Below are positions 20,004-24,895 of a DNA stretch of 64,000 nt, one piece after another (the stretch's first letter is position 1; each line of letters starts with the position of its first letter). The DNA is from Kitasatospora sp. NBC_01250 (GTDB lineage: Bacteria; Actinomycetota; Actinomycetes; Streptomycetales; Streptomycetaceae), in contig NZ_CP108476.1 in the NCBI RefSeq assembly GCF_036226465.1, positions 4,712,001-4,776,000 of the forward strand. Direction: 5' to 3'. Position numbers and translations under genes: made by a program. The notes under the pieces were generated by a model, which did not search any database, was not told where the DNA came from, and saw only the letters and a list, made by a program, of their open reading frames with translations.

Positions 20004-20624
20004 GTGCGCGACGAGACGATCAGCGATTTCCTGGGCCGACTGGCCGACCGGATCCCCGCACCCGGAGGCGGCGCGTCAGCCGCCCTGCAGGCCGCGCAGG
20101 CGGCGGCGCTGCTGGCCATGGTGGCCCGCTACAGCACCGGCGAGAAGTACGCGGCGCACGAGGCCGTGGTGGAGCGGATCATCCGGGAGAGCGACGCACT
20201 GCGCGAGCGCGCCCTCACCCTGGCCGAGCAGGACGCCGCCGCGTTCGGCGCGGTGACCGACGCCTACCGGCTGCCCAAGGACGACGAGGCCGCCAGGGCC
20301 GCCCGCTCGGCCGCCATCGGCCGGGCGCTGGTCGGCGCCGCCCGCCCGCCCGCCGAGGTGATCACCGCCGCGCTGGACGCCGTGGAGCTGGCCGAGACGC
20401 TGCTGCCGATCGGCAACCCCAATGTGATCACCGACATCGCCGCCGCCGCCGAGGCGGCCCGCGCCGCGGCCACCACCGCCCGGGTCAACGTGGAGGTCAA
20501 CCTCGGCGGCATCCGCGAGGAGCGCACCCGCGAGGCGCTGCTGGCCGACACCGCCCGGGTGGACGAGATCGCCGCCCGCGCCGAGCAGGTCACCGCTGCG
20601 GTCCGGGCGGAGCTCGCCAAGTGA
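20004..20624 (+). CDS. fchA: Methenyltetrahydrofolate cyclohydrolase, FchA/cyclodeaminase family
   Basis: A 206-aa protein of the formiminotransferase-cyclodeaminase superfamily, matching stand-alone FchA in length. Family features: PAPGGGASAALQAAQAAALL near the N-terminus, the long helical core, and LLPIGNPNVITDI (about residue 133). The enzyme interconverts 5,10-methenyl-THF and 10-formyl-THF; the cyclodeaminase reaction is the alternative, but no formiminotransferase is nearby. GTG 20004 has AGGAAG upstream. The stop codon overlaps the folD start (GTGA), so the two are translationally coupled, and the FolD partner appears to lack cyclohydrolase activity. Confidence 0.82.
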   Translation: MRDETISDFLGRLADRIPAPGGGASAALQAAQAAALLAMVARYSTGEKYAAHEAVVERIIRESDALRERALTLAEQDAAAFGAVTDAYRLPKDDEAARAARSAAIGRALVGAARPPAEVITAALDAVELAETLLPIGNPNVITDIAAAAEAARAAATTARVNVEVNLGGIREERTREALLADTARVDEIAARAEQVTAAVRAELAK

Positions 20625-21466
20625 GCGCCACCGTTCTCTCCGGCACCGCACTGGCCGCCTCGATCCGGGCCGAGGCCGCCGCCCGCGCCGGGGAGCTGGC
20701 CGCCGCGGGGCGCCGGCCGCACCTCGCCGTGGTCACCGCCACCGACGACGGGTCGAGCGCCTGGTACGTGCGCTCGATCCAGCGCGCGGCGCTGAAGACC
20801 GGCCTGGAGTGCACCGTCCACGACCTGGGTGCGGACGCCGCACCGCAGGCGATCCGCGAGCGGTTGACCGGGCTCAGCGCCGATCCGCTGGTGCACGGCC
20901 TGATGCTGCAGACCCCGCTGCCGGCCGGCACCACCCTGGAGGAGCTGGCCTCGGCGATCGCCTTCGAGAAGGACGTCGACGGCGCCAACCCGCTCTCGCT
21001 GGGCCGCCTGGCCAGCGGTCTGCCGGCCTTCGCCCCGGCCACCGCCGAGGCCGTGGTCGCCCTGCTCGACCACTACAAGGTGCCGCTGAGCGGCCGTCAG
21101 GCCGTGGTGGTGGGCCGCTCCACCGTGGTCGGCAAGCCCGCCGCGCACCTGCTGCTGGACCGCGACGCCACGGTGACGGTCTGCCACTCGCGCACCGCCG
21201 ACCTGGCCGCGGTGACCGGCACCGCCGAGGTACTGGTGGCCGCGGTGGGCCGGCCCGGACTGATCACGGCCGACCACGTGCGCCCCGGCGCGGTGGTGAT
21301 CGACGTCGGGACCAACCCCACGCCCGAGGGCGGGCTGGTCGGCGACGTGGCCCCCGGGGCGGCCGAGCGGGCGGGCGCGCTGACCCCGGTGCCCGGCGGG
21401 GTGGGACCGGTGACCACCGCACTGCTGCTGCGGCACACGGTGCTGGCCGCCGACCGGGCCGGCTGA
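20621..21466 (+). CDS. folD: FolD-like methylenetetrahydrofolate dehydrogenase lacking the catalytic lysine
   Basis: A 281-aa FolD homologue with the usual two-domain layout: LMLQTPLPAG (conserved Gln), EKDVDG, the Rossmann motif VVVGRSTVVGKPAAHLLL, and the C-terminal PVPGGVGPVTTALLL. The family normally has YVxxK, where the Lys drives the cyclohydrolase step. Here the segment reads WYVRSIQRAA, so Ile53 (codon at 20777) replaces it; the next two basic residues are Gln and Arg. By analogy with Lys mutants of the human enzyme it should retain dehydrogenase but lose cyclohydrolase activity, the missing step being supplied by the coupled fchA. It ends 10 bp from the convergent channel gene. Confidence 0.9.
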   Translation: MSATVLSGTALAASIRAEAAARAGELAAAGRRPHLAVVTATDDGSSAWYVRSIQRAALKTGLECTVHDLGADAAPQAIRERLTGLSADPLVHGLMLQTPLPAGTTLEELASAIAFEKDVDGANPLSLGRLASGLPAFAPATAEAVVALLDHYKVPLSGRQAVVVGRSTVVGKPAAHLLLDRDATVTVCHSRTADLAAVTGTAEVLVAAVGRPGLITADHVRPGAVVIDVGTNPTPEGGLVGDVAPGAAERAGALTPVPGGVGPVTTALLLRHTVLAADRAG

Positions 21467-21476
21467 GAGCCGTCCC

Positions 21477-22559
21477 TCAGGACGCCGAGGCCGAGCGCGC
21501 GATGGTGATCACCCGGTCGGTGAGCTGGAGCGTGGCGGCCTCCGGGTCGGCGAAGTCGAGCACCCGCCGGCCGCGCACCACCGCGACCACCAGGTCCGGG
21601 CAGGCCCGCGGGCTCTGCCCGGCCTCGGCCCGGGTGACCGGGCGCTCGACCACGTCCAGGCCCCGGCCGTAGGTCAGCAGGTCCTCCATCACCGCGCCCG
21701 CGTTCGGGCTGAGCATCGACATGCCCAGCAGCCGCCCGGCCGAACTGGAGCTGGTCACCACGACGTCGGCCCCGCTCTGCCGCAGCAGCGGGGCGTTCTC
21801 GTCCTCCCGGACGGCGGCGACCACGGTGGCCGACTTGTTCAACTGGCGGGCCGTCAGGGTGACCAGCACCGCCGTGTCGTCGCGCTCGGTGGCCACCACC
21901 ACCTGGGCGGCCCTCGGCACCTCGGCGCGCAGCAGCGTCTCCGTCCTGGTGGCGTCGCCCACCACGCCCACCAGGCCGTCCAGGGTGGCCTGTTCGATGA
22001 CCCGGCGCTGCGGGTCCACCACCACGACCGCCTCCTTGGCCATCCCCTGGCCGAGCAGGGTCTGGACCGCGCTGCGCCCCTTGGTCCCGTAACCGACGAT
22101 CACGGCGTGGTCGTGCACCTGGGACCTCCAGCGTCCGATCCGCCACTGCCGGCGGGTCCGTTCGGCCAGCACCTCCAGGGTGGTGCCGACCAAGATGATC
22201 AGGAAGACCACCCGCAGCGGGGTGATCACCAGGATGTTGGCCAGCCGCGCGCCGTCGCTGACCGGGGTGATGTCGCCGTAGCCGGTGGTGGAGAGGGTGA
22301 CGGTCGCGTAGTAGGCGGCGTCCAGGAAGCTCAGCCTGGCGTGGGCGTTGTCGTGGTAGCCGTCCCGGTCCAGCCGGACGATCAACGCGGTGGCGAACAG
22401 CACCGCGAGCGCGATCGCGACCCGCAGCGCGACCTGCCGCAGCGGCGGCGCGCTGCCCCGGGCCGGCAGCTCGATCCGGCTGCCCGTCTCGCCGTCGGTG
22501 TCCTGGGCACGCCCGGCAGCGCGACGAGGCCCGCGCGGGCGCTGGTCACCGTTGGTCAT
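21477..22559 (-). CDS. Two-TM potassium channel with RCK/TrkA-N domain
   Basis: A 360-aa Kch-type channel. It has a short cytoplasmic N-terminus, TM1 (VALRVAIALAVLFATALIV), a pore helix with selectivity filter TTGYGD (about residue 95), TM2 (LVITPLRVVFLIILVGTTL), then a cytoplasmic RCK domain whose nucleotide-binding loop is VIVGYGTKGRSAV (about 158), and a TrkA-C-like end. It should form a ligand-gated tetrameric K+ channel. ATG 22559 is the natural start; the longer frame to the right is shadow sequence over moeA. The ribosome site is weak. Confidence 0.92.
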   Translation of the reverse strand: MTNGDQRPRGPRRAAGRAQDTDGETGSRIELPARGSAPPLRQVALRVAIALAVLFATALIVRLDRDGYHDNAHARLSFLDAAYYATVTLSTTGYGDITPVSDGARLANILVITPLRVVFLIILVGTTLEVLAERTRRQWRIGRWRSQVHDHAVIVGYGTKGRSAVQTLLGQGMAKEAVVVVDPQRRVIEQATLDGLVGVVGDATRTETLLRAEVPRAAQVVVATERDDTAVLVTLTARQLNKSATVVAAVREDENAPLLRQSGADVVVTSSSSAGRLLGMSMLSPNAGAVMEDLLTYGRGLDVVERPVTRAEAGQSPRACPDLVVAVVRGRRVLDFADPEAATLQLTDRVITIARSASAS

Positions 22560-22621
22560 CCGACCAGCATGCGGGGCCCGGCGGCGGGCGCCCGGGAGGC
22601 CGCGGGCGTGTGTCGTGCCGG

Positions 22622-23869
22622 TCAGCCCGGTACGCCCAGCAGCTCCACCCGCTCCCCCGCCGCCACCCCGCCCGGCGGGACGACCGCCAGCGCCTCGGCG
22701 AGCGCCAGCCCGCGCAGCATCGCCGGGCCGTCGAAGGCCAGCGGCACCGGACCGTCCTCGGTCAGGCGCACCGGCAGCAGCCGGGTGTCGCCGGGGTGCC
22801 CCGCCAGCCCCCGCACCGCCTTGACCCAGCGGCCCGGCTGCACCTCGCGCCCGCTGCCGGCGTGCAGCAGCGGCAGCGCCAGCGTGACGGTGCCCGCCAC
22901 GGCGGCCAGCGGGTTGCCGGGCAGCCCGACCAGGTGGCGGACCCGCCCGTCCGGGCCGGCCGGCGGCAGCTCCGCGAGCAGCATCGGGTGCCCGGGCCGG
23001 ACCGCGACGCCGTCCACCAGCAGCCGGGCGCCGGCCTCGGCCAGCGCCGTGTGCAGGAAGTCGGCCGGGCCCGCGGCCGTGCCGCCGGTGGTGATGATCA
23101 GCTCGGCCGGCGAGCGGCGCACCGCGTCCCGCAGCAGCGCGAAGTCGTCGCGCACCGCGCACTGGCCGATCAGCTCGGCGCCCGAGGCCCGCAGCCACGG
23201 CTGCAGCATCGGTCCGAGCGCGTCCCGGACCAGGCCGGGGCCCGGCAGACCGGCCGCCACCACCTCGTCGCCGAGCACCAGCAGCTCCACGGTCGGCGGG
23301 CGGCCCACCGTCAGCCGGTCGTAGCCGCAGGCGGCGGCCAGGCCGAGGACGGCCGCGGTGACCGGTGTCCCGGCGGGCAGCAGGTCCTCACCGCGCCGGC
23401 ACTCCTGGGCCCGGGGCCGCACGTCCTGCCCGGGGGCCAGCGGGCCGGGGCCGGTGGGGTGCAGCGTCCCGGCGCCCCGGGTCGGGTGCGCCACCCGGCC
23501 GTGCTCCCGGCGCAGCACCGCGGTGGCGCCGGGCGGCAGTTGCGCGCCGGTGGCGATCTCGGTGGCCCAGCCGTCGGCCAGCGGCGGCGGGGTCCGGCCC
23601 GCCAGCACGCGCCCGGCCAGCCGCCACGGGCCGGGGCCGGCCACCGCCCAGCCGTCCATCGCCGAGGTGTCGAAGGCGGGCAGGTCGGTGAGCGCGGCGA
23701 GCGGCCCGGCCAGGGTGTGGCCGAGCGCCGCGGCGAGGTCCAGCTCCAGGACCGGCCGCGGCAGCCGGGCGGCGGCCCGCCGGGCGATCGCGCGGGCCTG
23801 CGGCCACGGGGCGACCGGGGTGGGGGTGGCCGTCCCGGCGGCGCCGATCGGCGGGGCGGAGGCGTTCAC
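22622..23869 (-). CDS. moeA: Molybdopterin molybdenumtransferase MoeA
   Basis: A 415-aa MoeA family protein. Family features are PAFDTSAMDGWAV, the insert domain with ATGAQLPPGATAVLRREHG, the MoCF-biosynthesis domain with ELLVLGDEV, ELIITTGGTAAGPADF, and GLPGNPLAAVAGT. MoeA inserts molybdate into adenylyl-molybdopterin. The usual GGVSVG-type loop reads GGTAAG here, a modest divergence. GTG 23869 overlaps the stop of the upstream DUF6457 gene (GTGA), so it is translationally coupled. Together with mobA it forms a small molybdenum-cofactor cluster. Confidence 0.9.
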   Translation of the reverse strand: MNASAPPIGAAGTATPTPVAPWPQARAIARRAAARLPRPVLELDLAAALGHTLAGPLAALTDLPAFDTSAMDGWAVAGPGPWRLAGRVLAGRTPPPLADGWATEIATGAQLPPGATAVLRREHGRVAHPTRGAGTLHPTGPGPLAPGQDVRPRAQECRRGEDLLPAGTPVTAAVLGLAAACGYDRLTVGRPPTVELLVLGDEVVAAGLPGPGLVRDALGPMLQPWLRASGAELIGQCAVRDDFALLRDAVRRSPAELIITTGGTAAGPADFLHTALAEAGARLLVDGVAVRPGHPMLLAELPPAGPDGRVRHLVGLPGNPLAAVAGTVTLALPLLHAGSGREVQPGRWVKAVRGLAGHPGDTRLLPVRLTEDGPVPLAFDGPAMLRGLALAEALAVVPPGGVAAGERVELLGVPG

Positions 23870-24144
23870 GGCTGGTCGGCCGCCGTCGCGTCGGCCGCCG
23901 ACCGTGCCACCCACCGCTCGGCCAGCGCGGTGACCTGCCGCACGGCCTCGGTGACCGCGCCGGGGCCACCGCCGCGGGCGGCCGCGGCGTAGCCGACCAG
24001 GAAGGTGGTCAGCGGTGCGGCCGGGCGCTCCACCCCGTGCGCGACCACCCTCGCGAGGTCGAGCAGCTCCCGCAGGTCGGCCTCCGGGTCGATGCCCAGC
24101 TCGGCCGCCGCCTCGGTCATCCAGTCGTTCAGCGTGCGTTCCAT
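23866..24144 (-). CDS. DUF6457 family small protein
   Basis: A 92-aa, all-helical cytoplasmic protein: residues such as LNDWMTEAAAELGIDPEADL and LLDLARVVAHGVERPAAPLTTF match the small DUF6457 proteins that occur beside moeA or mobA in actinobacteria. No catalytic motif. Its conserved place between mobA and moeA, and its overlap with the moeA start, suggest an accessory role in molybdenum-cofactor handling; that is inference. Confidence 0.82.
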   Translation of the reverse strand: MERTLNDWMTEAAAELGIDPEADLRELLDLARVVAHGVERPAAPLTTFLVGYAAAARGGGPGAVTEAVRQVTALAERWVARSAADATAADQP

Positions 24145-24241
24145 GGTGAACCATGCTGCCGCACACGGCGGCGCCAGGCCCCGCCGTGGTGTTGCGCGGG
24201 GGAGATGTTTCGCTCACCGGGGTGTGCGGAGCGCGATGGAC

Positions 24242-24895
24242 TCACCCCTCCACCGCCCGCCCCGGCGTCCGCTGTGCCCCGCGCTCCTCGGCCCGGCGGC
24301 GGGCGCGCGCGAGGTCCTCCCAGGTGTCGCAGTCCTGCGACACCCCGTCAGGATCGGCCAGCCGCACCGTGCGCAGGCCGCCGACCAGCCGGCGCAGCGG
24401 CCGCCCTGCCGGGTCGCCCAGCGCCGCCAGCGCCGCGCGCAGCGGCGCGGCCCGGTAGGCGGCGGCCAGCGGCTGGTCCCGGCCCTCGGCGTCCACCAGC
24501 ACCGCGGCCTGCGGGTGCGCGGCGCCGTCCGCGGCGACCGCGGCGGCCAGCACCCGCACCGTGCGCGCGTCCAGGAAGGGCAGGTCGGCGGCGAGCAGCA
24601 GCACCACCGGCGCACCCAGCGCGGGCTCGGCCAGAGCGGCCGCGACGGCGGCCACCGGGCCGCCGCCGGGCGGGTCCTCCCTGGTCCAGCGCGGTGCGCC
24701 GGTCGTCTCCGGGTGCGTGCCCCGGGGCCCGACCACCACCGTGGTGTCCGCCGCCGCGCAGGCACCCAGCACCCGGTCCAGCAGGCTGCGCCCGCCGACC
24801 GTCAGCCGCGGCTTGTCGACGCCGCCGAGCCGGCGGGCGGCACCGCCGGCCAGCACGATCGCGTCGAAGGGCGTGGGCGTGGGGCCACTGGTCAT
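24242..24895 (-). CDS. mobA: Molybdenum cofactor guanylyltransferase MobA-like
   Basis: A 217-aa nucleotidyltransferase. The N-terminal nucleotide-binding loop LAGGAARRLGGVDKP is the MobA signature, followed by LLLAADLPFL (metal-binding Asp) and the C-terminal DCDTWEDL motif. The family adds GMP to Mo-molybdopterin. The protein is near the usual length. A closely related CTP:cofactor transferase cannot be excluded. 97 bp separate it from the DUF6457 gene downstream, so moeA may be transcribed from here or from its own promoter. Confidence 0.85.
   Translation of the reverse strand: MTSGPTPTPFDAIVLAGGAARRLGGVDKPRLTVGGRSLLDRVLGACAAADTTVVVGPRGTHPETTGAPRWTREDPPGGGPVAAVAAALAEPALGAPVVLLLAADLPFLDARTVRVLAAAVAADGAAHPQAAVLVDAEGRDQPLAAAYRAAPLRAALAALGDPAGRPLRRLVGGLRTVRLADPDGVSQDCDTWEDLARARRRAEERGAQRTPGRAVEG

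Follow-up and report, generated by a model that had tools for sequence, protein, structure and literature searches.

The window, a stretch of 64,000 nucleotides from the single-contig, 9.0-Mb genome of Kitasatospora sp. NBC_01250, carries two overlapping genes on its forward strand. The upstream gene (20004..20624, GTG start) encodes a 206-amino-acid protein of the FTCD_C family (PF04961), a predicted methenyl-tetrahydrofolate (methenyl-THF) cyclohydrolase referred to here as FchA-like. The downstream gene (20621..21466, GTG start) encodes a 281-amino-acid FolD homologue without the catalytic lysine, predicted to act solely as an NADP-dependent methylene-THF dehydrogenase. The two genes share the four nucleotides GTGA (20621..20624), so that the folD start lies inside the fchA stop, an arrangement that suggests translational coupling. 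The open frame of folD extends back to 19757, and the start was placed at 20621 because homologues start there. A search for a riboswitch at the pair returned no Rfam match in the window at the gathering threshold. Downstream, on the reverse strand (21477-24895), lie genes for an ion-channel/TrkA-N protein, MoeA, a DUF6457 protein, and a MobA-like NTP transferase. This molybdenum-cofactor group adjoins the C1 genes and is mostly kept at syntenic Kitasatospora loci.

Residues of the two proteins and their predicted roles

The window FolD passes the gathering thresholds of both Pfam domains (PF00763, 89.9 bits against 32.8, and PF02882, 189.5 bits against 27), matches the solved FolD structure 6v6y with an E-value of 3.4e-63, and finds the yeast enzyme 1EDZ as a remote sequence match (E 5.5e-5). 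Thirty FolD-type families in NCBIfam match at E ≤ 0.001; the matching models carry the name 'bifunctional', and the 25 of them that were listed all score below their own cut-offs, the best reaching 289.6 of 421 bits. Bifunctional FolD requires the lysine of the YxxxK motif. The window protein reads AWYVRSIQRA here, that is Y49-V-R-S-I53, with isoleucine encoded by ATC (20777..20779) where FolD has its cyclohydrolase lysine, as the preliminary description had noted. That description also took the other FolD signatures to be intact and the overlapping upstream gene to be of FchA/cyclodeaminase type, and both points hold. In an alignment with 146 homologues from the surveyed loci, the window protein retains Tyr49 (20765..20767), the substrate-site tyrosine of YxxxK, Gln97 (20909..20911), the partner of the lysine in canonical FolD, the K-D-V-D120-G segment with the folate-binding Asp120 (20978..20980), and PGGVGP. 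Tyr49, Gln97, and Asp120 are invariant across 13 aligned members of the clade. Arg166 (21116..21118) and Ser190 (21188-21190) are invariant among 13 aligned orthologues as well, and they presumably occupy the positions of the NADP phosphate contacts in human MTHFD1. All of these codons are on the forward strand.

The window FolD and the Bombyx enzyme happen to share their residue numbering; in the latter, Tyr49, Lys53, Gln97, and Asp120 correspond to the active-site set of human MTHFD1 (PMC6443876). Comparison with four orthologues gave dN/dS values of 0.20-0.32, so folD is under purifying selection, which was seen on the fchA-like gene as well; together with the intact frame, these values rule out a pseudogene. 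A chance substitution or sequencing error at residue 53 was likewise discarded because isoleucine or leucine is fixed across the relatives described below.

The same position has been altered in Escherichia coli FolD. There, the K54N variant retained ∼19% of its dehydrogenase activity with undetectable cyclohydrolase activity, the strain was viable but grew very slowly, and methenyl-THF hydrolysis can also be spontaneous (PMC5688156). By this precedent, Ile53 predicts a dehydrogenase-only enzyme; K54N is a slow-growing laboratory mutant, whereas Ile53 is natural, fixed, and accompanied by an adjoining FchA. The preliminary description had proposed a split pathway, and a dehydrogenase-only FolD(Ile53) working with a separate cyclohydrolase FchA is the reading best supported by the sequence data, through fixation, co-occurrence, and loss of canonical folD, with a probability of roughly 85%. 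In the activities, cofactor use, and in vivo direction that we infer, FolD(Ile53) would convert 5,10-methylene-THF to 5,10-methenyl-THF, probably with NADP+, without hydrolyzing the product, and the FchA-like protein would convert methenyl-THF to 10-formyl-THF.

The same chemistry could have been kept as an escape from FolD inhibitors, in that a FolD without the lysine could not bind carolacton-type compounds and FchA would cover the lost step. Carolacton binds via K54 through two hydrogen bonds, the residual dehydrogenase activity of K54N is completely insensitive to it, and resistant mutants gave up the cyclohydrolase, as stated in the E. coli study (PMC5688156). The pair in genome G061 (L041 1-6687) also lies ∼3 kb from a 2,228-amino-acid NRPS-like ORF and a thioesterase-like ORF, identified by ORF reading only from ORF-caller lists that contain antisense artefacts and served as leads only. 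The recurrent genomic context of the pair is instead sarcosine and dimethylglycine catabolism, and inhibitor escape is an unlikely reason for its retention.

For the upstream protein, Pfam finds only FTCD_C (171 bits, cut-off 24.5). The NCBIfam FchA model NF045657 matches with an E-value of 2.1e-38, but the score of 131.9 bits is under the equivalog cut-off of 275, and the protein is therefore named FchA-like. This shortfall and the Pfam family name, formiminotransferase-cyclodeaminase, would fit a formimino-THF cyclodeaminase, in which case FolD(Ile) would merely reduce or oxidize its methenyl-THF in histidine or purine breakdown. Yet the closest solved structure is 7vg4, a 'Methenyltetrahydrofolate cyclohydrolase' (E 9.2e-27), ahead of the cyclodeaminases 1o5h (E 2.6e-17) and 1tt9 (E 1.8e-13), and for all 12 aligned actinomycete homologues the FchA model is the sole NCBIfam match at E ≤ 1e-5. 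If the protein were a cyclodeaminase, the six genomes discussed below, which lack both a Lys-FolD and Fhs, would rely on spontaneous hydrolysis. Cyclodeaminase function is accordingly very unlikely.

Fixation of the substitution and linkage to FchA beyond the genus

Among the best 80 of 272 relatives in a named collection, residue 53 of FolD is isoleucine in 75 and leucine in five, and FchA lies upstream on the same strand in all 80. A wider alignment of 146 FolD homologues, three of them fragments, gave the same picture: all 64 FchA-linked sequences with a readable residue are non-Lys, and 74 of the 79 without linked FchA have lysine, the exceptions being L184, L185, L191, L193, and L196. This unlinked set is biased, as 40 of its 79 members were picked among the listed best matches to a canonical query; those 40, half from FchA-bearing genomes and half from genomes without an FchA match (20 each), all have lysine. 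Orthologues with lysine beside the same fchA were sought specifically, and none occurred among the best 80 of 272 relatives or the 64 linked FolDs, which are overlapping sets.

These counts bear on whether FolD(Ile53) might still be bifunctional, with another residue or an altered pocket replacing the lysine and FchA acting as a mere accelerator. Retention of Tyr49, Gln97, and Asp120 would suit such an enzyme, since other Lys-less clades have also lost Gln97 (to Leu or Phe) and partly carry Glu for Asp120, whereas the window's clade keeps both. No basic residue is conserved beside Ile53, however; the clade has R, K, N, G, S, T, A, or M at residue 55 and R, S, G, or N at residue 51. The invariable upstream FchA and the loss of detectable cyclohydrolase in the E. 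coli variant also argue against retained bifunctionality, which is hard to credit on this evidence.

FTCD_C genes turned up in at least 49 of 394 family genomes, with eight candidates scored per genome, and in at least 133 of 396 phylum genomes; both counts are lower bounds. Outside the genus, 36 of 37 family loci were taken, leaving out one in G136 that fell below the cut-off. Thirty of the 36 hold a FolD homologue, and the 29 with a readable residue all have isoleucine or leucine. A FolD at 39-47% identity is also present in each of the 34 genomes behind these loci, so canonical folD has not generally been lost. Fifteen of the 40 phylum loci taken from those listed hold a FolD, none with lysine. 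The FTCD_C gene stands without FolD in the stretch at 25 of the 40 phylum loci and six of the 36 family loci, some of which are cut by contig ends.

A tree of 102 FolDs, built with the trait column removed and with near-duplicates and fragments left out, split the 53 sequences without lysine into two groups. The best tree has two changes, well-supported branches force one, and the three independent pairs give a sign-test p of 1. The association between residue and neighbor therefore reflects one or two ancient, faithfully inherited origins, and many independent lysine losses together with FchA are not supported. Several sequences stand apart from the main pattern. L112 is a long-branch sequence with YVRSI and Gln97 that falls outside the window's clade. 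Genome G176 has, in addition to the Ile type, a second and distant FchA/FolD pair (L085, 38% identity) with YEGRL, Leu for Gln97, and Glu for Asp120. The sole FolD found in each of G621 and G442 (L184 and L185) is of a Leu type, YVNSL, unlinked to the FchA of its genome. G170 (L088) has just fragments of FchA and FolD, both in a single stretch, and the pair is apparently decaying.

Co-occurrence with FchA and loss of canonical folD in Kitasatospora

Close homologues of the window FolD (71-100% identity) occur in 14 of 70 Kitasatospora genomes, all 14 with isoleucine; FTCD_C/FchA was found in exactly these 14 genomes, with no occurrence among the remaining 56. The window's genome also encodes a canonical Lys-FolD with the motif YVRGK (G000:C1:3856045-3856896, reverse strand), 0.88 Mb from the pair, in agreement with the earlier suggestion of a second C1 route beside a normal FolD elsewhere; the pair would here be that second route. 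A canonical FolD (42-44% identity) is found in eight of the 14 pair-bearing genomes, the window's included.

No canonical FolD was found in the other six (G001, G016, G020, G053, G061, and G068; completeness 97-100), among them K. humi RB6PN24 (G016) and K. mediocidica KCTC 9733 (G020). The first genus search for FolD scored 35 candidates per genome, and a repeat with PF02882 scored all candidates; in all six genomes FolD(Ile) alone exceeded the family cut-off, with one extra sub-threshold match of 23.5 bits in G053. The canonical folD locus was then traced via the neighboring gene mdh in the six genomes and in two comparison genomes, G056 (Kitasatospora sp. MAA4) and G063. Canonical folD is present at the mdh locus of both comparison genomes and absent from that of the six. 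Remnants of the gene persist at the deletion site in four of the six. L199 3163-3348 retains both ends of folD, with N- and C-terminal pieces of 39 and 26 residues side by side, and L200 866-928 retains 21 residues of the gene end; the matches at L201 3110-3172 (E 0.004) and L206 778-828 (E 0.026) are weak, and none was seen at L202 or L203. The complete rescan and the reading of the locus counter the possibility that a canonical FolD was overlooked. Apparent stops, one inside the FolD(Ile) gene of G068 and one within the G020 match to PF02882, each proved to be the gene's own last codon.

A search for Fhs found none in the 70 Kitasatospora genomes. PurN was matched in all six genomes, and each also has an open frame for PurH, which Pfam confirmed in two. 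As PurN and PurH are kept and neither canonical folD nor Fhs was found, the demand for 10-formyl-THF persists and FolD(Ile) plus FchA is its only recognizable supply. The pair appears to have replaced the two-in-one FolD in these six related genomes, where it would be the only recognizable 10-formyl-THF route for PurN and PurH. Because methenyl-THF hydrolysis can be spontaneous and the K54N strain is viable, the six genomes are no strict proof of cyclohydrolase activity in FchA.

The FolD of the pair in the six genomes is 71-74% identical to that of the window, and its loci have no flanking genes in common with the window. A window-syntenic locus is nevertheless recognizable in all six by its quinone-oxidoreductase, MoeA, MBL, and HAD neighbors, and it carries fchA without folD (L033-L038). 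This second FchA was considered as a partner for another dehydrogenase and rejected, as it sits without a FolD in 6/6. A further type of FolD is found in nine Kitasatospora genomes without FchA (L017-L024 and L026); it has lysine in the motif YVRMK and 46-49% identity to the window's FolD, and where it lies on large contigs (L020, L021, L023, and L024) it is 0.07-0.62 Mb from the contig end.

Neighboring methyl-group catabolism and comparison with known systems

At 16 of the 80 loci (best 80 of 272 relatives), the pair is flanked by some or all of the genes for sarcosine oxidase, a dimethylglycine-oxidase-like (DMGO-like) protein, serine deaminase, and PurU. Neighbors were searched with tblastn (E ≤ 1e-15) using gene references from L283 and L255. 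This gave 15 loci with DMGO-like genes, 15 with PurU, 14 with L-serine ammonia-lyase, 14 with dihydropteroate synthase, 13 with SoxG, and 13 with true SoxA; 11 of the 80 loci have SoxA, SoxG, SdaA, and PurU all together. Two of the original 15 SoxA matches (L263 and L285; 29% identity) fell on the GCV_T region of the DMGO-like gene and were not counted. Also set aside was a PurU match (37% identity) next to canonical folD in L039, a formyl transferase taken for PurN. In L283 and L255, family models place PurU, SdaA, and dihydropteroate synthase over curated cut-offs, SoxG reaches 120.7 of 143.95 bits in NCBIfam and passes the Pfam cut-off, and SoxA is clipped at the stretch end. The label 'DMGO-like' is our own for a protein with DAO, FAO_M, and GCV_T domains, which no model names.

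The sarcosine-type context is found in Geodermatophilus (7/7), Saccharopolyspora (4/4), Amycolatopsis (2/2), Prauserella (1/1), Modestobacter (1/1), and Streptomyces (1/12). No such neighbors were found within ≤5 kb per side at the remaining 64 of the 80 loci, Kitasatospora included (contig ends truncate some of these stretches), and oxidative use of the pair in the window is therefore an extrapolation. Gene neighborhoods in the flanked relatives suggest that the pair serves the oxidation of methyl-derived C1 units. In these other families, methylene-THF from demethylation would be converted to 10-formyl-THF via the pair, and PurU would then probably yield formate and THF.

Sarcosine clusters of the type glyA-soxBDAG-purU are known from Arthrobacter, where they also include sdaA, and from Corynebacterium (PMC3534580, PMC3691474). 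Their soxA, soxG, sdaA, and purU genes are those that recur beside the pair at the 11 loci noted above. The clusters of the relatives differ by the presence of fchA-folD(Ile) and the DMGO-like gene; the available portions of the Arthrobacter and Corynebacterium reports make no mention of fchA (PMC3534580, PMC3691474).

Separation of the two activities is already known as a principle from Clostridium perfringens and from acetogens. The C. perfringens FolD is reportedly dehydrogenase-only despite its 'bifunctional' annotation, and both FolD and FchA are reported to be required to replace E. coli FolD (Aluri et al. 2016, Microbiology 162:145). As there, the Kitasatospora genome has a separate FolD and an FchA-family gene, in this case linked by the 4-nt overlap; C. 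perfringens is an anaerobe with Fhs, whereas no Fhs was found in Kitasatospora. Yeast Mtd1 (1EDZ) is also reported to be a monofunctional methylene-THF dehydrogenase. Another monofunctional methylene-THF dehydrogenase, is that from Peptostreptococcus productus (PMC6443876). Among acetogens, Acetobacterium woodii and Clostridium autoethanogenum carry fchA and folD in one cluster with fhs, like the window pair in the linkage of the first two genes but with Fhs and in the reductive methyl branch (PMC10472528, PMC10213532). That the actinomycete pair should likewise run reductively, from formate to methylene-THF, is extremely improbable despite this shared enzyme set, given that no Fhs was found in the 70 Kitasatospora genomes searched and that oxidative C1 genes (DMGO-like, sox, and purU) adjoin the pair in some relatives.

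No description of an fchA-folD(Ile) pair in actinomycetes was found in the open-access literature, as covered by best-matching titles and abstract openings. As far as this literature goes, the new elements of the split dehydrogenase and cyclohydrolase are the Fhs-free actinomycete setting, the replacement of lysine by isoleucine or leucine with the other catalytic residues kept, the loss of canonical folD in six genomes, and the link to methyl-group catabolism in relatives. FolD is usually viewed as a single enzyme with two activities, and it is considered a drug target. In this case an entire clade has surrendered one half of FolD, which a second gene probably restores. Six Kitasatospora genomes seem to rely on the split version without Fhs. 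The system offers a natural test of whether coupling both steps in one active site matters, together with a rule for annotation correction that needs one residue and one neighbor gene.

A broader proposal is more tentative and, taken as a whole, rather doubtful. It would have the ancient actinomycete fchA-folD(Ile/Leu) module stand in generally for bifunctional FolD among aerobic bacteria without Fhs, act as a dedicated line for betaine-type methyl oxidation, be insensitive to Lys-anchored FolD inhibitors, and work well enough for at least six species to have deleted canonical folD. Under this proposal, linkage to FchA would predict loss of the lysine in Actinomycetota, and many proteins annotated as 'bifunctional FolD' would be dehydrogenases only. 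An unexpected companion of the fchA-folD(Ile) pair is the dihydropteroate synthase counted above, which is of the folP type and lies beside the pair at L255 5993-6862 and at 13 other loci.
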